DNA from: Muricea muricata
Taxonomy: Eukaryota; Cnidaria; Anthozoa; Malacalcyonacea; Plexauridae
Direction: 5' to 3'
Assembly: GCA_963855995.1 (NCBI GenBank)
Contig: OY979718.1
Coordinates: 38,501,059 to 38,565,058, forward strand
DNA length: 64,000 nucleotides
In this document: positions 991 through 64,000 of the stretch, one piece after another
How the letters are laid out: the number at the start of each line of letters is the position of its first letter
How positions within the stretch are numbered: the stretch's first letter is position 1
Notes under the pieces: generated by a model
What the model was told of the DNA's origin: nothing
The model's input: only the letters and a program-made list of their open reading frames with translations
The model's database searches: none
Position numbers and translations under genes: made by a program

Positions 991-1092
991 GTTAATTGAG
1001 TTCTTGTGATTGGTCCAAAAGACGTTCGCAAGTACACAACTTATTTTAAGCTCGCACAAAACAATTGCACAAAATACGAGTACTGCATAGCC

Positions 1093-1184: not shown

Positions 1185-1187
1185 TGC

Positions 1188-1240
1188 ATAGCCTTATTTT
1201 CTCGCTACACTAGCGCTAGAAAACAAACGAAAATAAGGCT
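1188..1240. repeat. Short hairpin agccttattttc / gaaaataaggct
   Basis: A 12-bp perfect stem around a roughly 25-nt loop directly right of the 92-bp foldback, whose target duplication overlaps its left foot. Suggests the foldback inserted at or near the end of an older inverted repeat. Confidence 0.6.
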
Positions 1241-7274: not shown

Positions 7275-23566
<16,292 letters not shown>

Positions 23567-27418: not shown

Positions 27419-27557
27419 ATTGATATCTTTGTCATCAAGTTGCATGTGCTAATTGGAAAAGTAGGACAAACATCAGTTGTAGGCTTATACTTATAGCTAG
27501 TATAGCGCAATCACGATATTTAAAAGCGTTCTATAAGCTCGGGTTACTCCTTATAAT

Positions 27558-27758
27558 ATGGATAAAGACAGTTTAGAAAACATGTTCAAGGCCATGAAAA
27601 TGTCAGAATTGAAAAAGTTTCTGCAGGATCGCGGAATTACGGTAAATAGTTATTTAAAGCCTGACCTCGTGGCTATTGCTTGCGCTGTCGAGGAAATGAA
27701 TTTCCCGCCACAATGTCAGACCACTGAGGCAGAAGAAAAGCTTAACATGTATGGTTGA
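27558..27758 (+). CDS. SAP-like 66-aa ORF in left arm of inverted pair
   Basis: Opens with MDKDSLENMFKAMKM and contains a predicted helical SAP-like core (residues about 16-48). It follows a conserved upstream block also present in the reverse copy. Probably the N-terminal remnant of a transposon-encoded DNA-binding protein rather than a host gene. No downstream catalytic domain is present. Confidence 0.35.
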   Translation: MDKDSLENMFKAMKMSELKKFLQDRGITVNSYLKPDLVAIACAVEEMNFPPQCQTTEAEEKLNMYG

Positions 27759-28189
27759 CCATTTGTTTCAAAGTGGGTTCGTGATACATGGGCTCTAATC
27801 TAATGTATATTTTTCACTAAACACTTTTAACGGGTATATATGTGTCTTTTGGACGCGTGTATATGCGTATTTTTGACGCGCATGTATATGCGCTTTTCCT
27901 AAACACGCATATATACGGGGGTACAAAACACGCATATATATGCTGCAAAACACGCTTATATTTGCGTACGAAACACCCATATATCTGCGTACCAGTGAAC
28001 TGCGTGTCTCATTGGAGGGCATTACCAATTCGACGCAAAGGATTTTGATCAGAAAGCTAGGAGAAAAGCAAGGTGGAATGGTGAATTATTGTAAGATATT
28101 GCACATTAAAGTGAAAAATTTACGTTAGATTAGAGCCCATATATCACGAACACATTTTGAAACAAATAGGCAACCATACATGTGCATTT

Positions 28190-28383
28190 TAAGCTTTTCT
28201 TCTGCCTCAGTGGTCTGACATTGATTGTGGCAGTAAATTCATATCCTCGACAGCGCAAGTAATAGCCACGAGGCCAGGCTTTAAATAACTATTTACCGTA
28301 ATTCCACGGTCCTGCAGAAACTTTTTCAACTCTGACATTTTCATGGCCTTGAACTTGTTTTCTAAACTGCCTTTATCCATATT
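28190..28383 (-). pseudogene. Frameshifted second copy of the SAP-like ORF
   Basis: Reverse-strand duplicate of the ORF at 27558-27758. It starts MDKGSLENKFKAMKMSELKK and retains the core, but a CAAT duplication near the end moves it into an early stop. Base changes relative to the other arm show that the duplication is not very recent. Confidence 0.55.
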
Positions 28384-28700
28384 ATAAGGAGTAACCCGAG
28401 CTTATAGAACGCTTTTAAATATCGTGATTGCGCTATACTAGCTATAAGCCTATGGCTACAACTGATGTTTGTCCTACTTTTCCAATTAGCACATGCGAAA
28501 TACCCCCCGCGACGCTTGATGACAAAGATATCAATTTATGAATCGTCCTACAATAAGTCAAAGAGCCAACAAGGCTACGATATATTAGTTTTCCTAGTTA
28601 TGACAACATGACGGAAAAGGGCGCAGCCCGAGTGACTATTAAGCATTTAAGTTTCACGAGCGATGTTAAATCTCATATCGCACGAGTAACCATTCATTAA

Positions 28701-40389: not shown

Positions 40390-42030
40390 TGAATTGAGCA
40401 ACTTTGATGATGCAATATTTTATTAACAATGCCATTGCAACAACAATAATTGTACATGTTTCAAACTTAATACAGACGAAGGTTAGCAACGAAATCTGGT
40501 CACAACTGTCTTCTTCAAAAAAGAAGATGGATCTTCAGTTAGCCAATTTGCTACAGACTATTTGCAAGTTGGCTATCACAGTCTTACAGACAGGGGATGA
40601 ATTTCTGCCTAAAACAAATGGTGTGACTATAACCAAAACTTAGCTTCTCGTCTTCTCGTCACTGGCTATGCTAGGTCATGCAAATGCTGAGCTATCTAGG
40701 CTTCGACGTGAGCAGATACGTTCTGCTCTTCGGCCTGAAAATTCCTATATTTGTAAGGCAGAGATTCCAAATGGCCCTTCGTACACACCTGAACCCAATA
40801 GATGCTTTTTCATTCAATGGACCGACATAAAATTGCATGCTTTCCCGCCATTCAGTGTTATTCCACCAGTAATACACAAAATATGTCAGAACCATGCTCA
40901 AGGAATAATAGTAATCTTCGAATGGACAACACAGTATTGGTATCCAAAAGTTATCCAACTACTAAAAGAAGCCCCAGTAAAACTCAAAGCAAGTACAAAT
41001 CTTCTTCAACTGCTACAAAACCCGCAGGCGGTACAGCCGTTACATGTCCATCTAAGCCTACAGGTGTGTCACTTATACGGGAAAGACTCGACCAACATGG
41101 CCTCAGCAGCGCAACTCAAAGAGAGGTCTTTATGCCGATTGGGTACCAGGAAACAATAATATTGTACCTATCTAAGCAGATAGGAGCGATATTAGGGAGA
41201 AAATCAACTCTCAAAACTTAACCCATGTTTGAATTTGTTTGAATCAGGGTTGGGATACAGTGCTTTGAACACCGCTAGATCGGCGTTATCGGCAGTTTTA
41301 CCTTTTTTTAAGCCTTGTTCCCATTTAGTCGTGAATGTCGTGATTATATCACAGTGATCGATGTGATAGAGTATGCATGCCGATCCACACTTAACATGAC
41401 TAATTTGAATACAGCCCACATTAGAAAAGGTAGCTCTAGACCATATCACATCGTCGAGAATGGTTTTGCTGCGACAGTAACGACCAAATGGAAACTTGGC
41501 TTTAATGGCATAAAATTTGGAAAACACCCACCACCGCGGTATAAAGCCATCTGGAATGTTGGTGAAGTCTTTAAAATCTAACGGCCCTAAAACAGGTTCT
41601 AGAATTATCGTTAAAGGACCTTACTTTAAAGTTAACCATGCTTCTCTGCTTACTCACAGCTCAGCGATGTCAAACTCTGCACTTTTTGGACATCAAATTT
41701 ATACAAGAATTAGAAGCAAAATACCACATAACAGTACTACAGAAATTAAAACAGTCTAGACCGGGCCAACATTTAGAACCAATTGTGCTGTTAGAATTTG
41801 TTCCAGACAGAAAACATTGTGTAGTTACTCATCTTCGAGAGCACTTTAAACGAAGGTTTTAAGAGGGAATAATAGTCAGTTATTGCTAAGCTATATAAAA
41901 CCTTTTAAACCAATGACTAAAGCAACAATAGCTAGGCGGGTTAAAACTATTTTACAACAAGCGGGTTGGTCTTCTAAACTTGCAAGAGATCATGAAGCCA
42001 GCGGGTTGGGCATCGTCGTCCACATTTGAA
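40390..42030 (+). mobile_element. Decayed DIRS-type retroelement (RNase H and tyrosine recombinase remnants)
   Basis: In order: a Gag-like piece (MLGHANAELSRLRREQI at 40668 onward), an RNase H-like end of the reverse transcriptase (AFPPFSVIPPVIHKI, TQYWYPKVIQLL, NPQAVQPLH; to about 41060), a YR-linker piece (IRERLDQHGLSS; near 41070), then tyrosine recombinase fragments with TAQRCQTLHFLD and SRPGQHLEPIVL (41638-41862) and TIARRVKTILQQAG (to about 41985). This order is that of DIRS elements. Frameshifts and stops break it, a large part of the RT is missing, and the HxxR site is replaced (DHEASG), so it is dead. Confidence 0.75.
41638..41990 (+). pseudogene. Tyrosine recombinase fragment of DIRS element
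   Basis: Carries the first catalytic Arg in TAQRCQTL and the DIRS-typical DIKFIQEL and FVPDRKHCV segments, stops at 41862, then continues as LLSYIKPFKPMTKATIARR in another frame. The expected HSVRG motif is degraded. Confidence 0.65.
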
Positions 42031-44286: not shown

Positions 44287-44583
44287 GTAAGGGCACGTTC
44301 AAGTCTTTAATTAATAGAAGCAGAATCAATCCCGAGTGTAAATCAGGGGTCAAGTAATTGTACTGGAACTGTAAATGAAAAAAGCAAGGAAGAAAAAGTT
44401 GGCCAGCACGAGGTATATATACCTATACATTCGACTACAGTGTAGTGCGGAAGAGGAGTATGAAAATAACTGCTATTAATAGTAAACTTTGATGTCTCAT
44501 ATTTGTGGGAGGCGGAAGAGTTTATGCGAACGATTCTTCTTAAAGCATGAGAACCTTCAAACACTTAATGAATTTTACCCATA

Positions 44584-44939
44584 GATATCTCATATACACT
44601 AGATAATGCATCTGCATATCAAAAGTGAAGCCAAAAATCTCAGAGGTATCCCCTCAAAACAATAGGCGGCGGCCATATTGGTCGTTCCCACTCATAAAAA
44701 AACAACAAAGAAAACACTATACTATTCTGCGTTTGTGTATAAAATACTTTTTAGCTGTATAAAACAGGATTTACTATCAACTTTGCCCATTTCCGCAATA
44801 CAAAATACACAAATTATCATGCTCTGTGTCAACTCTGTGGGAACGACCAGCGCCTGCGATCTGGCTTCAATTTTCGCCTGCCCGGTGTGGGACCATCTAT
44901 TTTAGGGACATTTGCACCATCTAGTGTATATGAGATATC
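44584..44939. mobile_element. Mariner-type MITE with TA target site
   Basis: Perfect terminal inverted repeats GATATCTCATATACACTAGA, flanked by TA on both sides. A second internal inverted pair ggtcgttccca / tgggaacgacc lies further in. 356 bp. Confidence 0.8.
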
Positions 44940-45479
44940 TACGATTTTACCTAATAAATCCGCCGCTACATATGATTTGAGGAAAATGTAAATATAATAA
45001 TTATTTTTGTAAAACAGAACGTTTTAAGTCTCTTTTACCACAAATTATTTCGAAATTGAATTGTAACTAATAGTATTCATGTATTGATATTTTATCTTTA
45101 TTACTGGTGTAATTTAACCTTTGGTTACAAGATCAGTGGTTTTTCTAATAATAATGATAACAAAATCGCATCGTACCAGAGAATGTCTTACTCAAATTTT
45201 AATCCCATTCCTTGTTTATTGTTTTTTTGCCAATGAATCCCTGTCCCAGTACTTGAAATTCAATTTCCGCAGCAAAAAATAGGCAACTTCCAGTTCTCAT
45301 TTTATCCTTTAGGATTCCAGATATTAGAACTATTTAGCTATGCAAAACTTTCTCGGAACATGTCGACAAAAGTTGTAGGTGTTCTATATTTGCTTCACAT
45401 TTCTTTTCCTATTTCGTCGTCATTTTACCTGAATTTCCTCCAGATGTCTTCCTTATACCGTTGATGTCTGAGTATTCGG
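44940..45479. other. No gene seen
   Basis: AT-rich sequence between a mariner-type MITE and the palindrome. The palindromic similarity may fade out within its right part. Confidence 0.35.
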
Positions 45480-48430
45480 CCAAGCGGAGAGATTTTCAGC
45501 GAAGCCTTTCCATCGCAGATAAGCAGCAAATGACGTCAGATGATCATTGTCCTCCAAAAAATACCCGTATGTAAGAACGAAGCTAAAAAAAGATTTTAAT
45601 GCGCGGACGAGGTGTTATTAGCATCATTTCTAAGTCAGGTATTTCATCTACTTTTTTCCTTCTTTTTTACTTCGCCCGTGTTTTCTATTTTTGATTTGCA
45701 TGGTTATGAGCAAGAATAGACCCGTTCGTGATTTCATTGGCTAACATCTTTCCCTCCGTGGAAGAGTGGTAAAGGTAACTGTGTTCCTGATTGCCCACGT
45801 CGTTTGACTTTAGTTTTGGGTGTGGTTCGTCGACAGATCAAGTCCAACCGTTAAAATTCGTCACTCGCTCAGTTGGACAGATACCGATCGACGACCACCA
45901 AAAATTCAAGTCAAAGCTGTGAGCGTTGGGTGCAGGAAAACACAAGGCAGTAACACGAAGCAAACGTTATTTGCCTAGTGTTTTTTAACTAATATTCAAG
46001 AAAATTTCCTAAACTTGACTGTTGGGGACAGGTCTGTATACAGGGTTGGTGCAATGAAGACTTCTCGCTGTTATTTATCTTCGTTTAAGAAGACAAGTTG
46101 TCTTCGTCCAGAAATAACGGCGAGAAGACTTCAAGGCACCACTAAACCACTGCACTGTAAAACTACAACTACAGTGTAGTGGTTTAACTATATATGGCTG
46201 ACTTCTTCCTAAAGCTTATGGTAAAAGCATGGATGCGCGAACATTTTCAAAGCCTTTAAAGCAATTTGTTCAGGAAATAACCAAAGCCGTGTAGTCATGT
46301 TTTAAGTTGTTTAGCTAGCTATGTTTTATAGAAAGGTCTTTGTAATAAGCGAATTCGACGTTTGCAAATCAATAACTTTTGTCTTTTGACTTTCCGTGGA
46401 CTTTTCTTCTTTCTTGAGCGAGCTTTATGTGCCATTGCGTTCAGTGTCCTTGATATTGGAGTCATTTATTTATGGCCTTGGGTTTAATTCCCAAACACTG
46501 AATGGCAGTCTTCAGCCCTCTCAAGTAATGAGATAACATTGCAACAAGATGGCACTATGTATGACAGTACATAAAGACATTTTACTACCAACATGCAGGA
46601 AAGTTTGCATCGAGAATCAAAGCTTCTACATAGCCATGCACATCATATAGGGTACATCACAAATAAACTACAGAGTAAAATATATGCATCTCATTGATCT
46701 TAAAATAACCTTATCGGGGAAAACAGTTTTCTTCCTGTCGAGAAACATTGCTGCTCACAGCTTGTATATAACCAGGCATTTTATAGGTCATATCACAAGT
46801 AAACTGCAGAGTATATGCATGTCGTTGTCCTAAAACAAACCTATTACTCTTCAGAAAAACAGTTTCCTATCCACGAGAAAGCTTGACGCTCACCGCTTGT
46901 ATATAACCATTGAATGATACAAATTGAAGCGCACGATCTGTTTATTTCACTTTGCCAACTAACATGCAGCATTTTACAGTAAATTTACGACAACATATAA
47001 AATATATCTTAGAATGGCAGGGTGCACGCTAACGTTTTCACCAATTACAGCGGTGGACTATGCTAATACTATACAACGAACACAAATCTAATAAAAACAC
47101 GATATTTGACGAGACCTATTACGAGACTTGTCAACAACAAGACAAACATATAGATTTCCACGTTATTGGATCATCATATCTACGTTAAGCTTTGGCTTAT
47201 AGAATGTACTACACGTTTGTCGTTGTTGCGGCGTGAGTTACGTGTTGACAAATTGGTTACAGCGCGACAACGTAGTGCCATCCTGTTGCAATGTTATCTC
47301 ATACTTGAAAGAGCTGAAGACAGCCATTCAGTGTTTGGGAATTAAACCCAAGGCCATTAATAAATGACTCCTATATCAAGGACACTGAACACAATGGCAC
47401 ATAAAGCACGATCAAGAATGAAGAAAGCCCAGGGAAAGTTAAAGCAAACTTCGGATTCGCTTCTTGCAAAAACCTTGCTATAAAACATAGCTAAACAACT
47501 TAAAAAATGACTACACGGCTTTGATTTGGTAAGCGTTGTCGTCTTTAACACTTTCCTGAAAGAAAACACTTGTTTTAAAGGCTCTAAAGTGTTTGCGCAT
47601 CTTTGCGCATCCATACTTCTGTACCGTAAGCTTTGGGAAGAAGTCTGTCATATGTATTTGGCACAGTGTAGTGGTTTAGTCAACCACTACACTGTAGTTG
47701 TAGTTTTACAGTGTAGTGGTTTAGTGGTGCCTTGAAGTCTTCTCGTCGTTATTTCTGAACGAAGACAACTTGTCTTCTTAAACGAATGGAAATAACGACG
47801 AAAAGTCTTCAAAGCACCAACCCTACAGGTCTGTCCCCAACAGTCAAGTTAAGGAAATTTGCTTAAATATTAGTTAAAAACACTAGGCAAATAACGTTTG
47901 CCTCCTTGACCTCGCGGTACTGCCTAGTGTTCTCCTTTACTCCACGCCCAGCTTTGACTTTGAGTTTTTGGTGGATCGTCGACCGGTCTGGTCTGTCCAA
48001 CTGAGCGTGTGAAGAATTTTAAGTTGGACTTGGCCAGTCGACGAACCACCCAAAAGCAAAGTCAAACGATGTGGACAATCAGAAAGACAGTTACCTTTAC
48101 CTCTCGGCCACGGAGGGGAAGATGTTTGCAAACAAAAACTTAAACGAGTCTTTCCTTGTTCATCAGCATGCAAATAAAAAAAATTACAAAAACGCCCCTT
48201 ACCGGCGTTTCTTTTGCGAAATAAGTAAGTAAACTAGAAGTAAGGTAATTGGAGAATCATCTGAGTAAAAAAAAGGATAAAAAATACTTCATTCTCGCAA
48301 TAAAATCTTACTTTGAGCTTCGTACAAAGAACATTAAAGATTATACATACGGGTATTTGCTGGCGGACAATGGTTATCTGACGTCATTTGCTGCTGGTAG
48401 TCCAAGAAGAAGCTTCGAGAAAATATGTCT
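45480..48430. repeat. 3-kb imperfect palindrome with nested hairpins
   Basis: Left arm about 45480-46552 and right arm about 47276-48430 are reverse complements with substitutions and small indels. Shared landmarks include cagcaaatgacgtcagat, caaacgttatttgcctag, ttgactgttggggacaggtc, ccactacactgtagttgtag and gttgcaatgttatctcat. The spacer (46553-47275) contains a direct duplication of about 140 bp (cttgtatataacca at 46762 and 46896 region). Each arm also holds its own hairpins: gaagacaagttgtcttc inside cttctcg...cgagaag, and a gtcgac-centred pair. Confidence 0.85.
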
Positions 48431-48625
48431 GCTACGGTGAAGAATGTCCAAGCAACGGGTCTTGAAAACACCATACTCAAGGAGAACAAATACGGATTTA
48501 CTACGCAGAAATAACAAAAAAGTCTCACAGAAGCCATGTGGATGAAAATCGAACCAAGATGACGAAGAATTGGGGCAAAAATTGAGATGAAAAATAACGT
48601 GTTGTCGGACGAATTTAAAATCAAG

Positions 48626-50785
48626 ATGGCGTCGTCTTCTCCTAAAATCAACGCAACTAAAATCGTTCTAGTGAAGTTGGGCATCAACAATATTGGTATT
48701 CTAGTACACTTTAATTATTCTGCGTATTTAAAAGGTAAATATTTTAGTTATTAAATGTTACATTTTTGATAAAAATCAGGCCTGCATACCAGGTCGCAAT
48801 CTCAATTTTCTGTAATCAAATAAAAATCACTTTAATGTAATAATATAACTCAGTTTCGATTTCTCTCGCTTTCTCTAGCTCGGCGTAAAAGAACCGTTCG
48901 AAATGGAAAACTGGTCACTTAATTAAACAGAACTTCTAATTTCGAGGTAAGATAATTTGTATCTCAAGTCTGCGTCCTTTAGCTGTACAACTAGTTAGGA
49001 CTAACGATTTGGCATTAATTTTGTCAGAAAGATATTTTCAGTTGGTTAGAAGTTTCTAATTTTTCATACCTAAAATATTGCCTACATTTTACATAATCCC
49101 GCAGAGATACTGGGAAACAACCACGAGACAAATGTGATACGAGAATTCACGTCCACAAAGGAGATTCAAAAGCATTCGAGATGGTAAGAAAACCTAATAT
49201 TACTAAATATTTCATTATCTGTATTCTGCTCCCCCCCCCCAAAAAAAAAGTGACGTAACTTTCCATTAACATGAAAAATATGTCTCTAATAAAGTAATTT
49301 CTTTTTATGGGAATCTATTATAACTTACTTTCATTCTTTCTGCTGTTACTTGTTCTTTAAAACTTTTTGTGTCCACTGATACACTGCACTCTATACGTGA
49401 AATGGGAACTTCAGATTTTTAGTTCAAATTTAATAGGAATTCTTTGCTAGGGTCAAATGAAAATTCATTATGTTAGACCAATGTTAACAACTGAAATTAT
49501 AAGTGTTTACATGACTTTTGTACTGCGTTTCAATTGAACTACATGCAAATCTGAATTTCTTGATCCTTGCACTTCAGGCCCTCGTTTAATTTCGACATTA
49601 AATCCCCCTCCCTTTTCTCTAATTCAATCTTCTGTTTACCCCTTTATTTCTCACACTAGCCCTTCCAGGGTATTACCTCCTGATTTCACTTCAATTTTTA
49701 TCTTTTCACACACTTCTTACTCAAATTACCCCTCCTAGAGTAGCATCCCCTTTCGTCACCCAAATTCCATCTTTATCCTGTTTGCGCCCTTCTTTCTCCC
49801 ACTATCCATCCAATACTTGTAAGTTGTTCATTTGTCGTAGTTACAGGAGAATTATTCATTCAGTTTGACAATTACGTTTATATGATAACTACAGTGAAAC
49901 ACGACTCATTTTAATTCCGCCTCGTTACCAAGCCCTAGCATCACTAATAAGTTGCTGATATTTTACCTGATTTTATAATTCCAACCACCCTTTCAACATT
50001 TCGAAAACGGAGTACCCGGAGCAACGACTGTCAGCAGAGCGTTGATTAACTCCTCACATGGATGTCACAAGTCTGAAGTGGGGATTGAACCCACGACCTC
50101 AGAGGTGACAGGCGCTTGCTCCGAAGATTGCGCCACTTGGACATTAGTGTGCAAGATAACGCAATCCTACATGAGAAATTTAAATTCCCTGGCGTTGACT
50201 CGTGTTTCATTGACATCGTTGTTGTATAAATCAATTACTAAATAATTTTCTTAGCCGGATAGCGTCATCCATGTACCTGGGATGTTGCTCCACCCCAACG
50301 AAAACGCACAAAGATACTTTGCCTTTCTTTGACCTTTGTCTCGCAGCATTCCGCAAGAATGGATCACGCTATCCAGCAAATAACCTAAAATATTGAAACA
50401 TATCTCGCATGCATGAATGACCTTATTCTCAACAGAACACCACATGCTATTTCATTACTATTTTTCGTCACGTAATGAGACAGAGTAACCCAAATTTTAG
50501 AAATCGAGGACATTTTTGGGAGTCATTTTTAGTTGGTTTCCTATGTTATACAGTTCACTGATACGTAGTTTGTCCAATATAGTTTGTCCATGAATTTTCG
50601 TCCTCTCGGAGTTTTATCCTTTCATAATCCCCTGATATTCCACGCCTATAATAATTACTTAGTCTTCTGTAATATTTATGTAAAATTAATGCTATAATTA
50701 TTCATCTTTTGAAAGGATTCCAAGTGAAAAAAATTCAGTGCATGAAGCAAGGACAGAACAAGATGGGAAAGAAGTGAATTACTAA
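48626..50785 (+). CDS. Candidate small three-exon gene, unrecognised (85 aa)
   Basis: Exon 48626-48734 begins ATGGCG and encodes MASSSPKINA then a short hydrophobic stretch, ending in phase 1 at AAAAG/GTAAAT. Exon 49105-49183 follows acceptor tcccgcag and ends in phase 2 at TG/GTAAGA. Exon 50716-50785 follows a weaker acceptor (tttgaaag) and ends ...GKEVNY then TAA. The phases join exactly to give 85 aa. The C-terminal half is hydrophilic with many Glu, Lys and Ser. No family is recognised. The first exon sits just outside the large palindrome at 45.4-48.5 kb. A spliced non-coding RNA or chance alignment of splice sites remains possible. Confidence 0.35.
50067..50142 (-). repeat. tRNA-like SINE head (minus strand)
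   Basis: Reads on the minus strand as tRNA-like: A-box region agtggcgcaatcttcggagc and a T-arm gtgggttcaatccccac with a perfect 5-bp stem and B box GGTTCAATCCC. The acceptor stem does not close cleanly, so it is more likely a SINE head or tRNA pseudogene than a working tRNA. Confidence 0.55.
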
Positions 50786-51159
50786 TCGTGTCCATCACAA
50801 AATATCAAGATCAAAATTCTATCGCAATGTACGGTTTGTCAAAGTTATTCACAATCAAATATCCGTTTAGGAACCGTATTCTGAAATACTGGAAACTAAA
50901 TTTTAGTTTGCAGTATAAGTATTCTGAGTTAGTGTTTTGTAACATTAAGAATTTTCTTTTTATTTTATGATTGTCGACTGGATATGAGTGAGCTTGTTAC
51001 CTAATGGACCGACGTGATGCTCTATATATTAAAAGACAGAGAGAGAGTGCCAATCTGATGAAACCATGGACAGCATGACGATGCTTCAACCAAATGGAAG
51101 CCACGACGATCGAAAGATAGAGTGAATGTAGGTTTATTGATAAGACTTTAATCGAGCGT

Positions 51160-51332
51160 CGTTTTTTTCATGCGCCGAACCTAATAAAATTGAGTTCGAC
51201 AATCGAGCGAACTTAATATGTCGATCTAAATGTATGCAACAGTTTAACGTGAAGTATTTAGAATGATCGGGGAAAAGAGAAACTAGGGCACTTTATGCAT
51301 TACTTTTGGCGCATGAAAAAAGCGACGTTTGA
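51160..51332. repeat. Inverted-ended repeat
   Basis: cgtcgtttttttcatgcgcc and ggcgcatgaaaaaagcgacg bound about 170 bp. The outer atcgagcg motif resembles the duplicated unit at 51.9-52.2 kb. Confidence 0.6.
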
Positions 51333-51592
51333 CTTGCTTTAAACTATTACGTCGTACCGGATTTATCTTTGAAACTTAGTTCGGATTAATGCAATTATAA
51401 CTAGATTTAGCCCATGAAACAAACGCGTTCGACTATTGACTAAGTATATAATATTTGTACTCACTTTACCGGGTAAGCTTTTGTCGCTCCCCGTTTCCTT
51501 CTCAGTTCCAGTTCGAATTTTGTGTTTTGGTTTCCAACTAGAGAATGCAACATTTAATGACCAGTCCAGGGCTACAGTACATACAAGTAGTA

Positions 51593-51885
51593 GACTGGAT
51601 ATAGCTTCTATGAATATCAAAAGTGAAGCTTAATTTTACATGCAAATTTCACTTCCGGGGACCACAGAGGCCGTGTGATACAAATTTGTAAAGGAATACT
51701 TGGTGGGAAAAGAGCAAGAACGTACAATTTTGTAATATTTTAAGCACTCTGCAATTATTTATCATCATTGTTGTAGTAAACAAAGTTGTTTGTAACAAGT
51801 TTACATCACAAGTGGTCCCCGGAAGTGAATTTCGTGTTGTATAATTAGGCTTCACTTTTGATATCCACAGAAGCTATATCCAGTC
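51593..51885. mobile_element. Mariner-type MITE with TA target site
   Basis: Arms begin GACTGGATATAGCTTCT and include ttcacttccggggaccac in inverted orientation, with TA at both flanks. Arms about 75 bp, total 293 bp. Confidence 0.8.
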
Positions 51886-51901
51886 TATCATGAGATCAGT
51901 G

Positions 51902-52235
51902 GATTTGAGCCGTACGGACGAGATTTTTATCGAGCGATTCTTTTTCACCGACTAAATCAAAGTATAGGGAATGAAAAGTAGGACCACACAATTAAATTTT
52001 TTGTATCAACGCATGTCACATGTCATTACCATTATCTCAACCAGAGTTGATAGAGAAGATCAGAGTTGATAAAGATCATTTGACCATTTACGCGATTTGA
52101 GCCGGACGGACGCGATTTTTATCGGGCGATTCTTTTTGATCGAATAAATCAAAGTATAGGGAATGAACAGTAGGACCACACAATTAAATTTTTTGTATCC
52201 ACGCATGTCACATGTCATTACCATTATCTCAGTCA
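51902..52235 (+). repeat. Direct duplication, period 191 bp
   Basis: Two copies beginning gatttgagccg at 51902 and 52093 share ggaccacacaattaaatttt and gcatgtcacatgtcattacc. Confidence 0.85.
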
Positions 52236-52426
52236 GGCATTGCATTTTTTGGCCAATACAAAGGCTGAATGAAGTAGCTGGTCGTGGCCAGTAATTTCCT
52301 GATAAGATCGGCAAACTAAAATCGGGTATTTGGTAAAAAACACTGAGCACTTTAGTTTTTTGCCCCCCCCCCCAATTTCAGAAAATATCAGCCCAGCCCT
52401 GAACGATGTAACGCTCTGCTTTTTTT

Positions 52427-52739
52427 TAATTTTGGCAAATTAAAAGTATAAAACATGAAAACCACTTTCACTGGCGGCCGTTTTGAAAAAAATGCCAACC
52501 AGTAAATAATACCTCCTATTTACCAGTCAGGCAACCAATCAAAATGCTCGAAAACCATTATTTACTAACGAAATTAAAACTAAAACTAATTAGTATAATT
52601 TCTTTAGTAAATAATGGTTTTCAAGCATTTTGAGTCGTTGCCTGACAAGTAAATACGAGGCAATATTTACTAGTTGGCATTTTTTCAAAATGGCCGCCAA
52701 TGAGAGTCGTTATGATGTATAATACTTTTGCCAAAATTA
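52427..52739. mobile_element. Palindromic MITE
   Basis: taattttggcaaatt ... ggcggccgttttga ... gaaaaccattatttact mirrored around about 52590. Arms about 140 bp. Confidence 0.8.
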
Positions 52740-53093
52740 GCAAATGGAGAAAAATTGCTTTAATATAAACTCAAAGAATACAAACAAACTTTGATGTTAA
52801 ACTATCTTCAGGTAGCAGATCGTCTGCAAATACTTTATTAAATACTTTTTTCACTATTTAAAAATTATAAGTAAACTTTAGGAATCTTTAGAAGTAAATT
52901 GTATACATAAAAGACGACAGTGTACAAACTTTCTGATGTTTATTTAAATGTTTCGCCTTGCTGTATGCAAAAAATCCATTGCTGAAGACTGATTACTGGA
53001 AACCTTTGTTAGTAACTGGCGCAACTGTAATTTTCACTGCCAATAATTAATTGTTTGGTCATCGTAACTAATAGTTTCACCCCGCCCACGCGA

Positions 53094-53164
53094 CGTTTCA
53101 GAGTTAAAACAAATAGTTTCAGAGTCAAAACAAATAGTTTCAGAGTCAAAACAAATAGTTTAAG
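53094..53164 (+). repeat. Tandem 22-bp repeat
   Basis: Three copies of tttcagagtcaaaacaaatag. Confidence 0.9.
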
Positions 53165-53293
53165 TGGCCAAACTATGTAGTTATAACTTTTTAAAACTTG
53201 TTTTTTGCGAAGCGCTAAACGGTAGCTTGCAAATGATTGTATTCGCCTCAGGCTCAGTGATTATGGGAATAATCTTCGTCTCGGTGAGTATTT

Positions 53294-53640
53294 ACCATTA
53301 GTATTTTTACACAAGTGAACATAAGAAATCCGACGTTGTGACTGGTCCAATATGACGTGACATTCCTTTATATTCACCTACAGGTGAATATAACAGTAAA
53401 AACAAGTTTACAAAATGGCGACTAGCCGCCGTTTTGTACAAATTACGGACAAAGAAATAAACAAAATTAAAATAACTTGTGTAAAAATACTAAAACGATT
53501 ATTTGCCTCAGGCTCGGTGACTTTCGGGAATTATTCACCTCGACTTCGTCTCGGTGAATATTCCCCGATATTCACCTCGCCTTCGGCGAATAATTGTTAA
53601 ATAACACTTCGCCTTCGGCGAATAATTGTTAATTATCTAT
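53294..53640 (+). repeat. Dispersed repeat copy 1 with truncated ORF start
   Basis: Shares agtatttttacacaagtgaa and attcacctacaggtga with the copy at 59485. It contains an ORF (53415-53600) starting MATSRRFVQITDKEINKIK, similar in form to the N-terminus of ORFs in cryptons and related recombinase-derived genes of cnidarians (recalled, not checked), but the frame then runs into gaatattcacctcg repeats. Non-autonomous. Confidence 0.6.
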
Positions 53641-53663
53641 ACTGGTCAACATTTCTATTACAG

Positions 53664-53782
53664 ATAAAGCATGGGCAGCTGATCTGTATACGCCAAAGGT
53701 TGTAGATCCGATACAGACCGGATGCGAATGCTCCATCGTACTTATAAAATGTCTGGATAAAAACGTTCGTATTCTTTCATAA
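53664..53782 (+). CDS. Candidate terminal coding exon, unrecognised
   Basis: After a good acceptor (atttctattacag) an open stretch encodes KAWAADLYTPKVVDPIQTG, then CECSIVLIKC and a stop TAA, 38 codons. The acceptor phase (two bases completing a codon) matches the donor of exon 48626-48734, so it could be an alternative last exon of that gene. It could also belong to an unseen gene. No family recognised. Confidence 0.3.
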
Positions 53783-55978
53783 TCTCAAAGATATAAATGA
53801 TATTTGGTTACAAAATTAAACTTAAAGTTTATGTAAATCAGGGCAAAATCTTTATCCGATTTACAGATATTGATTAAAACTAAGCGGACATTATTAAAAA
53901 CAGTGTAAAGTATAATTTTGAGTGGAAGATTACCTTAAGCGACAATGATCCGCGCGCTCCGCTCCCTGAGTACGACCTTTCCACTTCTGTGCATATATTT
54001 TTACAATAGCATAGCTTGTAATTTATCGTAACTGTGATCTAATCGATTCTTTTCTTTCAAAAGGTGATGGGATGTGAAGAAACGTAAAAGAAAAAGATCA
54101 CAATGAATGATCCTGTATGACATTGACCCACAAACAACAACAATATTCAAGAATGACAAGACGTGACATTGGAATAGAAAGTAGTGGTAATTTACAAGTT
54201 AGTAGAGAACAAGATACTTATTATTAAGAGATCAAAGAGGGGATTAGGTTATTTTTTATTGTTTCTCACTGACAAAATTGTTTCTGGTTAAAAAAAAAGA
54301 GACAAATTGAGTGACCAGGTTGATACTTGAGTTAATGCGTGTGAAGAAATGAACGATATGGAATGTTTTAAAAGTTTCCAAGTTTTGAAAAATGACACTT
54401 TCGTTTGCTTTCAATTTTCAAGTTAAAAAATCAGGTGAAAATATAGTGGTCAATGATGACAGTGTTTCTTGACAGAAACAATACGTTCACGCACGCAAAT
54501 TGAATGAACATTGTCCTTATTTCTGAAAACAAAACAAAATAAAGCATGTCACTTATTATGTTGGATTAACGTTGAATAGAAGCATTGTGTCATTATCAGA
54601 TTAAATTCCCACGGGAATATACTATTTCTTTGTTTCTTAGTTCAATTTACCATACATGTGTACATGAGAAAATCAGTATGTATTCATTATATTTTTTTGC
54701 TCATTTTAAATTCCCATGGGAATATTTATTTTCATGGTAATTCATGGTGAAGACTTAAATTATAAAGAGAATCCTCTTTGACTTAAATATGATAAGTATC
54801 TTGGTCCTTTCGGGTTTGTTTTGGCAAGCAGGAACAATGAAACAATTAATCCATTGTTTTTGTGCACTAGAGCAAATTACGCAAGTGGTTTGAGAGCAGC
54901 TGCGTCGTACCATGCAAATGAAGGTGTTTCGGTTAAATAAGCATGAAAATTACGGTAAAGTCTCAACATATTTCGATCTATTTGTACTGTACCTAGCTGT
55001 GCGGCCCTTGAATTGCATTCTGAACCAAAATTCTTACAGACGAGTTATGAAAAAAAAACCTCAGGTGCGTTTCACCTTTTAAAGATTTTCAAATCAAAGT
55101 AATTTGTACTCTTTGTATTCTCATGCTTATTTCACCCAGCCTCATACATTGGTAAGGATTAGGTTTCTATTTGCTTCGGACCAGTTAACACAACACAAAG
55201 CCCATGCCCTTTCAGCTAAGATTTTTCATCTTGAAACTCGATCAAAAACTCAGATTAAGTGGGTTTAAGTAGCTAGAGATAACGTAAATTATTTTTATTT
55301 TGCTTTTTTGTTTATAACGTAATTTATTAGCTAAATGTATGGAATGCGAGGGTGTGCGCCGTGTGTAAGTTGCATGGGGTTATAGGCTTATTAAAGGAAT
55401 TAAAATTTTAGAAGTATGTTAAAAAACCAAAATCAATAATTGTTTCCAACAAAACAGATAAGTTTCAACAAGCTTGGTCTAGAATTTTCTTTTAAAATTA
55501 ATATTGTTAGGCACATATAACTGCTGGTTTATTGATAACAAAATGCGGGATAAGTTTTGTATTTTTCTGGCAAAGTAAGGCAAAAGTAAGTAGGCAGTTT
55601 ACCTGTTTGTATATGGGATCTTTGACGTTTCTGTTTGGCCTAGAATATCCAAATAAATTAAATTCAGTAGGCTTGGCATACTTTACCAAAATTTTAATTC
55701 TTTTAATTTTTGTATTTGGGTGGCAGTCGGGGTGGTGGTGGTGCATGTGGGTTTATCAGCTGTGAGTGACTGTGCGATAGTAAGGAATGTGGGGGTAACG
55801 AATGGAATGCAGGAGTTTAGGACCGAGGAAGACAGCTTAGAACTGAGGCAGGCAGGAAGTTGGTAGGATCAGCGGGGGGCACTTGTCATTTTGGCTTTGG
55901 GAATCAAATTTGCATGCTAAGTATTTAAGTCACTAACGTTAGTTGTTTTAATTTGTTAGGTATGCGCGGCTGCTCTCT
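53783..55978. other. AT-rich region without a supported gene
   Basis: Only notable features are palindromic attcccatgggaat-type motifs at about 54605 and 54710 and a GT-rich tract near 55725. Confidence 0.4.
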
Positions 55979-56156
55979 GGAGAAGATCAACTTAGCAATT
56001 TGCATTAGCATTTGCAAGGTTGGTCTTCTCTTCGCCGGCTACTCCGGCCAGCTCCCCGAGTGCTACTTCCACTGTAATTAAGTAGAAGTACTTATACTAT
56101 ATGTATAAGTACTTCTACTTAGGTGGAAGTAGCACTTGGGGAGCTGGCCGGGGTAG
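55979..56156 (+). ncRNA. Two adjacent hairpins, possible structured RNA
   Basis: 56039-56156 folds into a stem of more than 50 bp with a TATAT loop (aagtagaagtacttatac and its inverse) and outer arms ctactccggcc / ggccggggtag. Mismatches in the outer arms are G-U compatible on the plus strand. Immediately upstream, 55979-56030 folds gagaagatcaac with gttggtcttctc, again with G-U pairs. A foldback MITE remains the simplest alternative; no target duplication seen. Confidence 0.4.
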
Positions 56157-56164
56157 GAGGATTT

Positions 56165-57847
56165 TTTTTATTCAATTTCTCAATTCCCATGGGAATTGAA
56201 TTTCTAATTAAAAGGGGTCACATGTAAATTTTGTAAACAATTTATTGAAAAGAAGTTGTACAGATTACAATTTGAACAACAATAGAAAGAAATTAACTAT
56301 CACAAACTTGTACTTATTCAATAACAATAGAAGAAAACAGAACATGGCTGACATTGACATCGTGCTCAACACAAGCGAATGAACACAATGGTAAAGAACT
56401 TGGTTTTAATTCAAGTTTTCAAGATAAACATTTATACTTCAAAATAAATGATACAACTCTATATTAACTTTGATGAAGAAATATTACAGAGTTGTTTCAC
56501 AATTAGAGAAAATAAATGGCTTTATGATGGAATGAGACAAACAAAACATGCTTTATAAAACATTTATTGTAAAACTTTATGTTATCAAAAAATAAGACTT
56601 GTCTTTTGGGATGAATCCCACAAATTAAATTTTTGCAAGAGTCACAAAAATTAAAATATTTATCTTTAAAGGGCCTTGACATTTTGACATTATTTTATAA
56701 ACTTTACTTTTAAAAAAAATCGTTTCTAACGTAAAAAGAGGGTTTGTTTTTCAAGTGAATCTTCATGAAAGCCATATAATTCTCTCATGGCGTTTTTAAC
56801 CTGACAACAATTTAAGCTAGATAGAGATGACGTTGTTGTTGACAATATTAAATTTAAAATATATAAACGAACTTGGATTTAGCAAAACTGTAATGTAGAC
56901 GACGTTTCAGTCGAAAACGTTCTAATTATTTTGTGTTTTTCTAAATCTAACAGATTTTAATCAAGTTGGTTCTTATTTTTGTTTGTTCTAAGACTATTTT
57001 CCAAAAAAAATGAAGCTCTACAGCTCTCAACCATTTTACTTCCAAAATGTCGTTTCCGTTATATTTTAGCTATAACTGAATAAGTCTTTAAATGTCAATG
57101 TAACAGTGATATTTCTATTAAGTTTTTGTACAATGAGATGCATACAAAGACAAGCTTTTTTCCAAATGGTCATGGACTATTTTAAAATCCTGAAATGTCT
57201 TCGCCATTTGAATTACTCAAATGAACAAATATAATCCAGTTATAGTGAAATGTTAAATGAATCAAGCTACAAAATTTCAAACATCAAATGTCTCAAACAA
57301 TTGTTGGTTGTTGGGAAATTCACGGACCAATTTAGACTAAAAATTGTTGTTGTCAGGTAAAAACGCACTTATTCGAAGTATAGATTTATCTTTACTTACT
57401 TGTTGAACAGACCATGTTCAAAAGCCATGTAAACCTGTTTTCTTATATCATTATTCCTACTGTTGCAGAGTGGAACTTTTGAAAGTAAAGTTAAACTGAA
57501 GCAAACTAATTAATGCATTGTTGAAAGTTTATTTCAATTGCCTAACAAGACAAAATTTCCAAAAACATAAGTCAGTATAAAGTGAAAACGAAAATCAATT
57601 AAGGAAGTATGTTGTAATTTTAAAACTTTGAAATACCGGTACGTTTTCATATTCAAAGTAGTTCGCATTTGTAAATCAGATAGATTGGCTGCTCATTTTT
57701 TTTGACTAATCATTGCAACACTGCTCACTTCCTTACGAAGATCTTTCCTTTTGATTGTGTAGCAAGTTTTGTCATCAATGCAAAATCAGGTCTTGGTGCT
57801 TCAATTCAACTCAAATTCAAAGAAGTCCTACTTTAGCAAATATTTGT
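56165..57847. other. AT-rich, nothing recognised
   Basis: No ORF of interest on either strand. A palindrome aattcccatgggaatt sits at about 56180, the third such motif within 1.6 kb. Confidence 0.4.
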
Positions 57848-57851
57848 TTAA

Positions 57852-58275
57852 AGTGCATATGACACGAAATGTTATATTTCAGAATCATAGAATACATTGT
57901 GCAGTGATTATCACAGTGTAATTTACTTTTTAAAAACATCATGTTAAGGCGACTATTTAAACGTTTTAATGAATGACCGTGAGGCAAAAACTATCCCATG
58001 AATGGGAACAAGTTTGCACCAAAATGACCTCATGACGTTAGTGGTTTTACCCAGAGTCAAATTGAGTCAATCAACAGAAAATACATCTCATCAGTCACGT
58101 CATTTTGGTGCAATTTCGTTCCCAGTCATAGGACAGTTTTATGCCTTACGGCCACGTATGAAAACGTTCAAATAATTCCCTTGACATCATGTTTCTTAAA
58201 AATAAATTACTCTGCGTAAATCACTGCAGTATGAAGTCTGTATTCTAAAATACAAAATTTCGTGCCATATGTACT
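57852..58275. mobile_element. TTAA-flanked palindromic MITE
   Basis: Arms of about 190 bp beginning AGTGCATATGACACGAAAT and its reverse-complement partner AGTACATATGGCACGAAAT, with the centre near 58060. TTAA lies at 57848-57851 and 58276-58279. About 424 bp. Confidence 0.75.
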
Positions 58276-58279
58276 TTAA

Positions 58280-59484
58280 ACGCTTCAAAATGTTTATTTC
58301 AAATCACAAAGTTTGTTGGCTTTTTGCTTGTTTAAATTATTTTGTAGCGTAAAAGGCCTAAATAGTTTGTAAGAGTTTCAAAATGACAAATTATACAAAA
58401 CAATTTGGTTTTTCTTTTCAATTCACTGGAGAGATCATCAGGTTTGATTTACTTAGTTTTGTACAACAGCATTAGTCGGTTACTATGGGCACAATCTAAC
58501 CTTAAGTTTCTCTGTGAATGGAACCGAAGTACCCAGTACAAACCCATGGCTTAGTGATTAGCATTGGGCAAATAAAAAACTTTCTTGGGTCAGCTCAAAT
58601 GTTTAAGCAGTTATTTATATATAATAGGCAGTTAAAGAATCAATTTTGTGATTTTCAAATACACATTTTGAACAGCATAAATTCATATAAAACAGAAGAC
58701 GATTGAGAAGGTAGATCAAGTAAACCAAAGTATATTTTTCTTTTATTCATTTTGATAAACAAGTTCTGAAAAGTAAACTGTGTCAGCACAGAAAAGGTAC
58801 AAATTATTTGAATAGGACAATATTAAAAATATTTAAAATCATAATAAAATATTTTGGTTTCTTAAAAAACCATCTCAATGGTCTAAGACAAAAACAGTAA
58901 TATGGCAAAGACAAATAATGACAAACCGTTTTGCTTTGTTGTTTTTGTTTTTGTATCACTAGGGTAAAATATGATTGGTGAGTCTTTTGAAGAAAATAAA
59001 GAAATAGCTTTATCTAGACTGAAAAATCCAGACTGAACATCTGAAACATATTACCATGCTGCAAGATGCAACATGTTTTTTTTTGAAAACAAACTCAGTT
59101 TATCATTTTTGGCTTGCTTCAAATGGAAAATGTTTTGAAAATGAGATGTGACTTCCCATGATTTGTGGCAGCATGGATTTTTTTCTCTTCAATTGGGATA
59201 AAATCTATAGCTGGCACCAGCAACAATATAAATATTTTGAATCAACTAATACTGACATTGTACATTCTTTGTGGTCATTAAATTGGCACTGCCACTTGTC
59301 ACAAGTAAGCATACAATTTTCAAATCATTTCATACTTAAATTAAACAAGTTATAAAAATATAGACCTTTTAAATATTTTCCATCACCAGTGTTTGTTTCC
59401 AAGGCACTTGAAGGCAGTGGAACTTGAAATATAGGTCTAAAAATTCAAGAATATTATTGGTTGGAAATAAAATGAACCATATGT
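58280..59484. other. AT-rich, nothing recognised
   Basis: Short frames only, no splice-consistent exon found. Confidence 0.4.
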
Positions 59485-59725
59485 TATTAGTATTTTTACA
59501 CAAGTGAACATAAGAAATCCGATGTTGTGATTGGTCCATTATGACGTGACATTCCTTTATATTCACCTACAGGTGAAGGTGTAAAGGCTCGAGTGATTTT
59601 CGGGAAAGATTCACCTCGATTTCACAAGCTTGGTGATTTTCGGGAAATATTCACCTCGACTTCGTCTTGGTGAATATTCCCTGATAATCACCTTGCCTCT
59701 GGTGAATAATTGTTAATTGTAACAA
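59485..59725 (+). repeat. Dispersed repeat copy 2
   Basis: Same family as 53294-53640 but lacking the ORF start; contains repeated attttcgggaaatattcacc and ends ggtgaataattgttaatt. Confidence 0.75.
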
Positions 59726-59864
59726 TACTGTAAGTCAAAATTTTGCATGTGAAATGACTAGATCATAATGGACAAAAATGGCAGAAGATAAACAAAGTCT
59801 AGTCAGGTCTTTGCTAATGCACAAACACACACCATTCCTGTCCAACAAGAATTCACCATACCAA

Positions 59865-59930
59865 AAAAGATGGTGGCACGTCGATTTTACTAGAATGCAT
59901 TGTGATCTGAAATTGTTTAAAAGGAAACCT
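59865..59930 (+). repeat. Fragment of the aaaaaagatgg MITE family
   Basis: caaaaaagatggtggcacgt, then tcgatttt, gaatgcattg and ctgaaattgtttaaaagg match the left half of the element at 4622-4866. Confidence 0.65.
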
Positions 59931-60704
59931 ATTTTTTCACTTCACAAGTTTTCAGTGCCTGAAATAACTACAGTAACGCCCGTATATCTTATGTGTATCA
60001 TAAGCATATGTTACATGTATATATCATACACATATTCTATTTGTGCTAAATTAAAATAACACCTATCATACAAATATGTGTATCAGGTATGCAAATATTC
60101 TAAACAAAAAGGTACATATTACTACATGTCCACTGCATACATGTAGACCTCTATGCTATATTTCATTAAAATTCATTGATATTTCTATTAATAAAGATAC
60201 TAATTAAAATGACAAAATATATTGCAATATTAAGAGCCTGGATATGACCCCCAAGCTTGTCTCTGATATATGTGTCTATGCAATAAAAATTGTTAACATC
60301 AATAATATGTCGGCTCATTTGATGTATATTCATGCAGCTTTGCAAATTTGTAGAAATTTGACCAACAGAATGCATTCTGATAATTGCCTTGTATGGTTGG
60401 TAGTTTGTTATGCTTGCTAGCTGAGTTTCATACGGTAGGCTTCACCTTCCCATACATCCCACCCATTTGCATTGAAGTTTTTTATTGCTTAGCCTGCACC
60501 TTTTGCACTATGCTTGGCTGCTTGCCAGCTGTTTATCCAGGCTGCTTCCCTGTTTGCAACTGCTTGCAATTACTAACTGCTTGTGCATCTTGTTTGTCTC
60601 TCCATGTTATAAGTTGTGTGTACTGTATTCTGTCGCTGGTCTTTGTCTGTGTTCTCATCTGGTGCATTTTTGGGTCAGTATTTCAAAGGTCAACTTTCAA
60701 AAAA

Positions 60705-61332
60705 TTTAATCACAGTGTCCACATTTTCAAATTTTCAGGTACAAGTAACAATGAGGAAAAAAGTTACAACAAGTGGTATCTCCCACTAAGATTTTCCAAC
60801 CATAAAGAGACAAGTCCAAAGTTAGTTCATTCAAAACAGACCAGTGGTACAGTGATGCATGCAAAATTTCAACTGATTTTGATGCAAAATGCGAAGGTTC
60901 TAAATGAAGACAGGTAGCACATGCAAAGAGCCATTGTGAGACCAAAGGGGTAAAATCATGGACCAGCTAAAGCATAACTATAATGCATTTCCAGAACTCC
61001 AAACTAAGTTTTTTCATAAACAATGAGTCACTTGGTCCTTTCCACCAAGTTTCAAAGAATTTCATCACAGTTTCTACATTTTCAAAATTTCAGGTACAAT
61101 TAACAATGAGAAAAAAGTTACAACAAGTGGTATCTCCCACATAAGCTTTTCCAACCATAACACGGCAAGTCCAAAGTTACTTTATTCATAAGAGACCAAT
61201 AGTACAGTGATTCATGCAAAATTTCAACTGATTTGCGAAGATTCTAATTGAAGACAGGTAGCACACATGCAAAGAGCCATTGTGAGACCAAAGGGGTAAA
61301 ATCATGGACCAGCTAAAGCATAACTATAATAA
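60705..61332 (+). repeat. Direct duplication, about 350-bp period
   Basis: Two copies share aaaagttacaacaagtggta, ggtatctcccac, caaatttcaactgattt and gagccattgtgagaccaaag and following sequence. The second copy has small deletions. Confidence 0.9.
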
Positions 61333-62621
61333 ATTAATGATTGGCATATAACTGAAAGTAGGACAGTTTTTGAGGAACTTCCAAACAATATTGTGGAGTT
61401 GATCAAATGAGCTTCTCAATGTTACCAAATGAACTGACATCAACAGCAATTTTCAGGACTCATTCTATTGACACAGCTGTAACCATTATATACTGTACCT
61501 TTTGTTTATGATTTTGAATGAACCACTTTTTCATCATCAAAATGCACCATATATCTACAAAGATTTACGAGAATTTTGTTCAGGTTACAATTTTAAGGGG
61601 TTTTTAAAGTAATTTACACACAGTCCCTTAATCAATTTATCATGGGTCTGCCATAAAATATTTTATTGCATTTGAAAAGGACATGGCAAAAATCTAATGG
61701 TCTCTTGCACTAACTCTGGGTAATTTTTAAGACATTGCATAATTTCATTTATGAAGTTGCTTCAAACTTCAATTTAAGTAACTATGATTGCTCCATGAAC
61801 TTCCTGTATGCTCTTTAAGAAATCTACAACATTTCACTCACTAAGTATATACATTGTTATAGTTTTTTCAAATGTCAGATAATCTGTCACACCAAATCAA
61901 TTTGTGTTCCAGTCTGCAGAAAATGACCAGTGCATGCACAAGTTTTTTGTAAGTCCATCTTTGTTCAATCCAAAATATACCCATTGCATGTGAATGTGAC
62001 ACGGCATTTTTTATGAGACTGATGTGCAAGAAGGTTTAGCCAGTTCGCAGATATGCAAGAGAAATACTTTCATGCCCAGTGCAATGTGAGGAGGAAACTG
62101 GGCAACTGGGATATCAGCCTGGATGCATTCCATGTAAACTCCATGCCGAAGATACGCCAATATTTACTATTTTGTTATGCTAAATCCATACCAAAGATCT
62201 TCAGTGTTGAATGCATGGAATGCAGTCTCATATCAGGCACGCAATTTTGATATCTCCTATGTATTTTCTACTCAATTTTGTTAACTTTCCAGTCTGGTGT
62301 ACTAATATGGGAATGACTGAATGCAATACCATACACACAGTACTTTACTTTCTTTTGATGGGGTTTTTATCAAGTATATATTTTCAATACACTAAAATCC
62401 ATTCTATACAAGAATATGTGTTGCGACCAATTTTGTCAAATTACGAATTTGTGCAACTGGGGCAACATCAAAATATCTTTGGTATGCAAATTCCATACTC
62501 TGCTGCCTGGTTTTAAGCCACTCAAAAAACTCTGTAAATTTTTTACCCTTCTTAGTATATCATTATTAGAATAGAATATGATTAAACGAATAATTACAAC
62601 AATGTATCATGTAAAATATAC
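61333..62621. other. AT-rich, nothing recognised
   Basis: Short frames only. At 62070-62250 there are repeated ccatgccgaag / ccataccaaag-like segments but no convincing gene. Confidence 0.35.
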
Positions 62622-62629
62622 ATATAAAG

Positions 62630-63159
62630 CAGGGATGATTATAAGAAGATTTTTTCAAAACAAAAATCTTCTTAATTCTTATAATCATTATAAGAAGATT
62701 TAAGACAATATAAGAAGATTTTCGACTTTGAAATAAGAATGTGACGACATCATCAATTTACATCTAACACCCTATTACCCTAACCTAACAAGGGAAATTG
62801 TCACATTTAAACTAGAAATCCATTTTGAAAACTTTTTGTTTAAAAAACTTAAACACTAATGAATTGACTCTTTATTTACTATGTTTTAAAACCTAAAATG
62901 TACAAGTAACAGGGGATCTTGAAGAACTATATTTTAGCCGTTGTCCACTTCCATTTTAAAATGACATATAGAAAATTAAAATGAGTTTAATACAGTACTT
63001 AAAAAATTGAGATGAAAAAGTGTTAAAATATTTTTATTTAATGTTTATTTATTAACTTTATAAGAAAATATAAGAAGAATTTTCATCCAAATTAAAATCT
63101 TCTTAAAATAATATAAGAAGATATAAGAAGAAATAATATAAGAAGATTTTGCATCCCTG
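62630..63159. mobile_element. hAT-type MITE with 8-bp TSD atataaag
   Basis: Ends CAGGGATG and CATCCCTG, flanked by atataaag at 62622-62629 and 63160-63167. Subterminal sequence is built of repeated tataagaagatttt motifs in both orientations, including a tight hairpin near 62640-62700. 530 bp without coding capacity. Confidence 0.9.
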
Positions 63160-63287
63160 ATATAAAGCGAAGTAGTTCAAAACGTGCAACGTTTACAGCG
63201 AAATATGTCGCTCAGTTCAAGCTTGTTGCTCCCAAAAACAATCCCTAAAAGCAAAAGAGATATTCTGCTACAACAAAACATGTAAAA

Positions 63288-63506
63288 TGAAGCATTTTAC
63301 CTTGAAGTTGAACGAGGATTTAGACAAGAAACCTGTCGAATTTCAACAGAGACTTCCGAGGTAATTTTCGCCACGAGAAAGAATTTCGACCTTCGGAAAA
63401 CTCCGGATGGTAACGAAATAATCCGAAAGCAGCGCGCACATAAGTCGACAATTTCCGAGTAACAAGAAAGACCAAGCCATAGAAGCCACCAAAGGGACAT
63501 TTTCAA
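63288..63506 (-). CDS. Candidate first exon with signal peptide
   Basis: Minus-strand ATG at 63504-63506 opens a 69-codon reading frame starting with a hydrophobic leader (MKMSLWWLLWLGLSCYSEI) followed by CARC and a basic, Ser-rich stretch. It runs to a possible donor CTTCAAG/GTAAAA near 63300. Local GC and CpG content are higher than the flanks, as in the exons of the two real genes here. No downstream exons were found, so the product is unknown. Confidence 0.3.
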
Positions 63507-63627
63507 TAAAAACTTATCAAATATGACACATTAATTCCATCAGGTTTTAACCAGAAACGTACATTATTTTAACCAATTTTATTTCTAATTAACATGTTCA
63601 ATGAGGGTCTGCAGGCATGTTGATGTC

Positions 63628-64000
63628 TGCCGAGAGAATCGAACCAATCTCATTGGTAATTCACAGCAAAGCCTGTACCACTAGCCCACTCGTTCATGCT
63701 TGTGTAGTGGGTGGTACGCAAATTATTTACTTTAGCAAATTTTATTCTTAATTTTAAGGCAACATATTTGCAACAATATGAAGCGGGATTCGAACCAATC
63801 TAAATGGCAATTCAAACCAAAGCTCGTACTACTAGACCACTTGTTGAGGCTTGTGTAGTGTGAGGTAAATTACTGACTTTAACCATTTTTCAACCTCATT
63901 TTAATCAAGCCAAACGATTTTCAAATGTCTACAGCGAGATTTGAACAAATGTAGCTACTAATTCACACCAAAGCCTGTACCCCTAGACCACTAGTTTTTG
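63628..64000 (-). repeat. Three tandem tRNA-like cassettes, about 152-bp period
   Basis: Minus-strand tRNA-like units with B boxes at about 63636, 63787 and 63940. The middle one reads GGTTCGAATCC, a perfect B box, with an A-box-like agtggtctagtagtacgagc upstream; unit 3 is truncated by the window edge. Between units lies an AT-rich spacer containing ttaattttaag. Likely a tandemly amplified tRNA-derived SINE or tRNA pseudogene cluster. Confidence 0.65.

Follow-up and report, generated by a model that had tools for sequence, protein, structure and literature searches.

Interspersed segmental duplications are long blocks that lie in both orientations within a chromosome and have their edges in other repeats. 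The locus described here shows the same pattern of blocks and orientations, with breakpoints that are not pinned down; it was analysed in a window of 64,000 nucleotides (the whole stretch of DNA under study, C3:38501059-38565058 in a host assembly of 453 Mb and 74 contigs). The X-linked 1.688 repeats of Drosophila are short tandem units, scattered in many copies that gather on a single chromosome; the likeness lies in this distribution, whereas the unit here is long and complex and has a putative role at most. With the 3' transductions of LINE elements the locus shares a LINE on the left, common downstream DNA and varying left edges. In contrast to such transductions it includes copies that lack the LINE, has no common right ends among the copies traced and involves a unit far longer than is usual for them.

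According to the excerpts of their reports used here, Tetris (PMC4079207) and Galileo (PMC3573991) are foldback transposons, and Tetris also seeds tandem arrays (PMC4079207). Compared with what these excerpts describe, the palindrome in the window is similar in its long inverted arms with internal repeats, in its many diverged copies and in that no transposase was seen here, but it comes with kilobases of flank in every fetched copy, and no terminal duplication was seen (PMC4079207, PMC3573991). Among titles and abstracts on foldback elements, coral-genome palindromes, chromosome-specific repeats and large-plus-small karyotypes, none names this case.

We consider it probable, with some reserve, that the locus is a segmental repeat restricted to a chromosome and that an inverted duplication persists in it as a fossil, with the palindrome as a passenger. 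What resembles an odd transposon would then be a worn module within a long repeat. The puzzle is why a 17-20-kb unit reached 26 or more places on one of the three outsized chromosomes yet is rarely found elsewhere, and the interest lies in this chromosome restriction rather than in the palindrome itself.

Architecture of the palindrome

Comparing the region with the window by BLAST revealed one long inverted self-match joining the two arms, with 74.4% identity over 1163 columns (gaps counted) and 787 bits. In ten windows shuffled with an order-3 Markov model, inverted matches (<5 kb, E <= 0.01) numbered none in eight cases and one in the other two, the best reaching about 40 bits. The inner edges of the arms are sharp and the outer ones diffuse in the alignment. 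Arm-to-arm mismatches (149 of 1005 ungapped columns) are clustered, with a variance of 50-column counts of 25.0 against 12.2, the largest of 2000 permutations. A preliminary description of this DNA had outlined a palindrome of about 3 kb with opposed arms of about 1.1 kb, hairpins inside each arm and a tandem duplication in a spacer of about 720 bp, and this layout is borne out (Table 1). The two copies in the spacer, 46617-46774 and 46755-46909, are 72% alike in a direct match.

The hairpins of the left arm lie at about 45800-45925, 45937-45987, 46047-46141 and 46145-46186 and are mirrored in the right arm. Pieces of 501 nt from the two arms fold with z = -7.3 (left, 45700-46200) and z = -9.8 (right, 47660-48160), each relative to 100 shuffles. 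Since the same row occurs in both arms, the hairpins must have existed before the arm was duplicated.

Table 1. Positions of the features in the window
Feature	Position	Strand	Basis and remarks
Left arm of palindrome	45522..46560	+	inverted self-match and alignment; outer similarity fades to ~45500
Right arm of palindrome	47270..48395	-	inverted self-match and alignment; outer similarity fades to ~48417
Spacer with diverged tandem duplication	46561..47269 (709 bp)	.	direct match
Nested hairpin row, left arm	45800..46186	.	repeats and fold of 45700-46200
Hairpin row matching the left one, right arm	47663..48049	.	repeats and fold of 47660-48160
LINE 3' remnant, left end of unit in window copy	44511..45163	+	matches to L009 and others; split by insertion 44577-44944
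Private insertion with short inverted ends (44582-44610 / 44913-44941)	44577..44944	.	
Large dispersed repeat unit, window part	44511..64000	+	matches to copies A, B and C; private insertions; continues beyond window end
Block less variable between copies	55250..55499	.	98-99% in three copies versus ~94% around

The earlier view of an old feature, as opposed to an assembly fold, is upheld. With arms 16% apart and the same layout of two arms repeated at many separate loci, there is next to no chance of a fold or misassembly, an explanation for which no supporting point was found. The window is rich in inverted repeats, with 20 merged spans at E <= 1e-8 that total 12.9 kb including their spacers. 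This abundance, the long and internally repetitive arms and the lack of a Pfam-family frame among those tested would all suit a foldback DNA transposon that moved by itself and came by chance to lie within the repeat. We nevertheless regard such an element as highly unlikely, because homology continues past the right arm in each of the 20 fetched copies, none of which is thus a free element, and no target duplication was visible by eye at the diffuse outer ends (45500/48417). The preliminary description, too, had seen no standard transposon here, and a clean terminal-repeat edge, a target duplication and a transposase were all not found.

Many of the inverted-repeat spans in the window form full palindromes, 100-450 bp long, with the appearance of MITEs (miniature inverted-repeat elements); examples of spans are 13697-14338, 27418-28536, 37905-38299, 52427-52739 and 57846-58281.

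The larger unit and its chromosome distribution

The preliminary description proposed a genome-wide search for copies with common ends. Copies occur at 30 or more loci, and all 20 that were fetched have homology running rightward past the palindrome, over 760-3136 aligned bases in the compared range. The palindrome thus travels with its flanks. The coordinates of the preliminary description suit the palindrome and not the larger repeat that contains it, and its interpretation is partly supported; it overlooked that palindrome and repeat unit are different things.

Three copies traced further, A, B and C, measure about 17-20 kb each, with ends that are not fixed. Copy A begins near C3:35697104, and its similarity to the window holds as far as the window's end and carries over into the adjoining slice; on its right, short matches reach about C3:35715645 and a match to a related tandem array reaches C3:35717534, so that copy A totals some 18-20 kb. 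The unit in copy C (53.29 Mb) spans about 20 kb including insertions and extends to the point matching window position 63716 or slightly past it. Copy B (21.69 Mb) stops near window position 59488, at about 17 kb, and extends further left into the LINE. The right ends of these copies are unlike one another and fall within tandem repeats or insertions, or close to them. At the junctions of the unit, where left edges were judged by eye, no duplication junction, full junction pair or target duplication was resolved. The private insertion in the window copy is missing from all nine fetched copies that span its position (L009, L013-L017, L019, L023 and L025).

Tandem units of about 150 bp are seen at the right of the unit (window 63623-64000, L037:1-660 and L035:835-1387). 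They include stretches that by eye resemble tRNA promoter boxes; a tRNA gene search within the window found none.

With the left arm as query, at least 54 matches were obtained, corresponding to at least 30 loci (40 of 1774 candidates scored), of which 26 are on C3, three on C4 and one on C2. Within this scored set C3, which makes up 13% of the assembly, thus holds 26 of 30 arm loci, and these range from 16.7 to 60.0 Mb. The length-weighted probability of finding at least 26 of 30 on C3 by chance is about 3e-19, a value that overstates the bias, given a query derived from C3, the scoring of 40 out of 1774 candidates and copies that are possibly non-independent. The 20 fetched loci comprise 18 on C3 and one each on C2 and C4; counting the window, nine copies are in plus and 12 in minus orientation. 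A query from the right end of copy A gave at least 144 matches, 144 of 144 on C3 (39 of 592 candidates scored), and extends the C3 positions to 0.8, 3.3 and 4.5 Mb. Owing to the copies on C2 and C4, the restriction to C3 is not absolute.

Among the contigs probed, C1, C2 and C3 measure 124.2, 71.7 and 60.7 Mb, C4-C16 range from 11.6 to 19.2 Mb, and seven more are small. Three outsized contigs (124, 72 and 61 Mb) therefore stand beside thirteen of 12-19 Mb, and it is the third that holds most of the repeat loci scored. The fetched C4 copy, L028, lies at C4:353398-360449, and the other two loci on that contig map to 0.62 and 0.77 Mb.

Matches to the right end of copy A also recur at a spacing of about 8.6 kb at C3 4.52-4.54 and 58.04-58.08 Mb, near or adjoining copies of the unit. 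Ribosomal DNA was considered for these arrays and is unsupported, a 1.5-kb piece (about one sixth of the period) having no Rfam match.

One block of the unit varies less between copies than its surroundings (Table 1) and includes 108 identical columns across four sequences at 55289-55396. As it was chosen after looking and in four sequences, we treat this apparently slow-changing block as a lead only; an Rfam search at 55250-55500 gave no match even at a lax threshold. The long units and this block might serve as chromosome-specific recognition sites that mark C3 (for pairing, dosage or sex-chromosome chromatin), with the palindrome supplying dsRNA or a cruciform, a reading to which we give only a very slight chance.

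Order of events and route of spread

To order the events, arms were aligned wherever more than 750 bases could be matched, which gave 16 left and 21 right arms; the left arms of L023, L024, L026, L027 and L028 were dropped as too short. The resulting tree separates left arms from right arms as two groups (100/100), while branches within the groups are mostly short and unresolved. Left arms of different elements are on average 0.085 apart, and right arms 0.072. The mean difference between a left and a right arm is 0.162, both within the same element and between different elements. The grouping by side and the larger difference within an element indicate that the palindrome is older than the spread, and the equality of the two 0.162 values indicates that no arm-to-arm exchange has occurred since. 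The case of single-copy arms from one local inversion, also raised in the preliminary description, accordingly fails, as the arms are multi-copy and their divergence predates the spread. Judging from the short branches and divergences in the arm sequences, the unit apparently spread in a burst after the arms had diverged. The right arm of L028 branches outside all other right arms (100/100), so that a relative of the unit older than the other copies lies close to an end of C4.

At its left edge the window copy carries a LINE 3' remnant with a (TAA)n-like tail near 45137-45163, judged by eye. A Pfam search found RVT_1 left of the unit in copy A (2.5e-19); RVT_1 was called in L009 and L015, upstream of the common DNA. 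A LINE query gave at least 53 matches on C1, C2, C3, C4, C6, C7, C8 and C9 (40 of 71 candidates scored); with relatives on eight contigs, the LINE is a genome-wide family. In the left flanks compared, L010, L011 and L026 show no LINE and have another flank in common; RVT_1 is likewise missing from those of L010 and L026. Since L010 and L011 are near-duplicates (93%), these LINE-free copies represent at most two independent cases. The left edges vary: those of the window (44511), copy A (C3:35697104), L017 and L019 fall near the same place, and B, L012 and L020 extend further left. The gaps inside L012 and L020 were inspected by eye for splice-like joins, with nothing firm to show. A frame in L012 looks endonuclease-like by eye.

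These observations bear on a spread through RNA, in which a LINE transcript would have read through kilobases including the palindrome and been reverse-transcribed with variable 5' truncation, as an extreme form of 3' transduction. The reverse transcriptase directly on the left in several copies speaks for this route, as do the differing left edges. Several of these edges fall inside the LINE (window, copy A, L017 and L019), as 5' truncation would give, and this counts against our preferred explanation. However, L010, L011 and L026 share a flank that is not the LINE, the copies traced have no right end in common, B stopping where A and C continue, and the unit is far longer than usual transductions. 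Because the LINE belongs to a genome-wide family and some copies do without it, the LINE alone does not account for the spread, and we consider this RNA-mediated route unlikely.

The explanation we prefer, a segmental repeat with a fossil inverted duplication, runs as follows. A stretch of about 1.1 kb was doubled in inverted orientation around a 0.7-kb spacer, presumably by a single inverting event, and the hairpins common to both arms show that it already bore them. The resulting palindrome sat within a larger, apparently non-coding stretch. The whole stretch, about 17-20 kb in the copies traced, was later copied, probably in a burst. Copies are present in both orientations at no fewer than 26 places on C3, with a handful more on C4 and C2. 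As the likeliest route we infer segmental duplication at the DNA level, with breakpoints in the repeats of the unit itself (for instance the LINE on the left and the ~150-bp tandem repeats on the right). Since then the copies have decayed nearly evenly.

Constraint and decay in the arms

Measured against the majority base, the copies diverge by 0.050 (left flank), 0.045 (left arm), 0.042 (spacer), 0.038 (right arm) and 0.040 (right flank). Such near-even decay makes it most likely that the palindrome is carried along passively and does not work as a hairpin RNA. A functional long hairpin RNA, or a precursor cluster of small RNAs, would suit the strong folds of both arms, and some of the changes are in line with it. 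Paired positions diverge less than unpaired ones in the right hairpin row (0.032 versus 0.045), while the two differ little in the left (0.047 versus 0.052); compensated double changes number seven in the right row and none in the left; and the left-arm structure shows a deficit of broken pairs, with 10 of 1000 shuffles having as few. For the right-arm structure the deficit of broken pairs is not clear (137 of 1000 shuffles as low), and the seven compensated changes could come from common descent of few copies.

Against such a function, the arms decay at nearly the rate of their flanks, and among single changes in the hairpin rows those that break a pair outnumber those that keep it (98 versus 66 and 104 versus 61). 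Compensatory pairs between the arms show no excess in the analysis of one-arm structures, with 152 and 733 of 1000 shuffles as high, and the Rfam matches are below gathering scores. Taken together, we read the changes in arms and hairpins as passive decay with weak constraint at most, for which the less divergent right-arm pairs, the compensated changes and the left-arm deficit leave room. The pattern of change gives no clear support to a dsRNA or small-RNA role of the arms, and an encoded hairpin RNA or small-RNA precursor appears improbable to a high degree.

Several candidates were set aside. Covariation reported by RNAalifold for a two-arm structure came from a count biased towards kept pairs, and the one-arm control had no compensatory excess. 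Across the window no Rfam family reached its gathering score; microRNA matches were sub-threshold, well under the gathering scores, and the long hairpins of the window attract several unrelated families. For a coding function of the arms, the tested frames had no Pfam match other than one weak hit below the cut-off. Comparison of 45400-48500 with phage records gave no match, as did a search of viral contigs with three short patterns and one reading frame of the window.

Elsewhere in the window, 40644-41862 (+) holds broken frames that resemble DIRS-like or tyrosine-recombinase retroelements, none with a Pfam match above cut-off. The window also encodes a reverse-transcriptase fragment (Pfam), which together with the out-at-first domain points to an animal host, and an exon with an out-at-first C-terminal domain lies at 39120-39530 on the plus strand (OAF_C, 1.9e-23).
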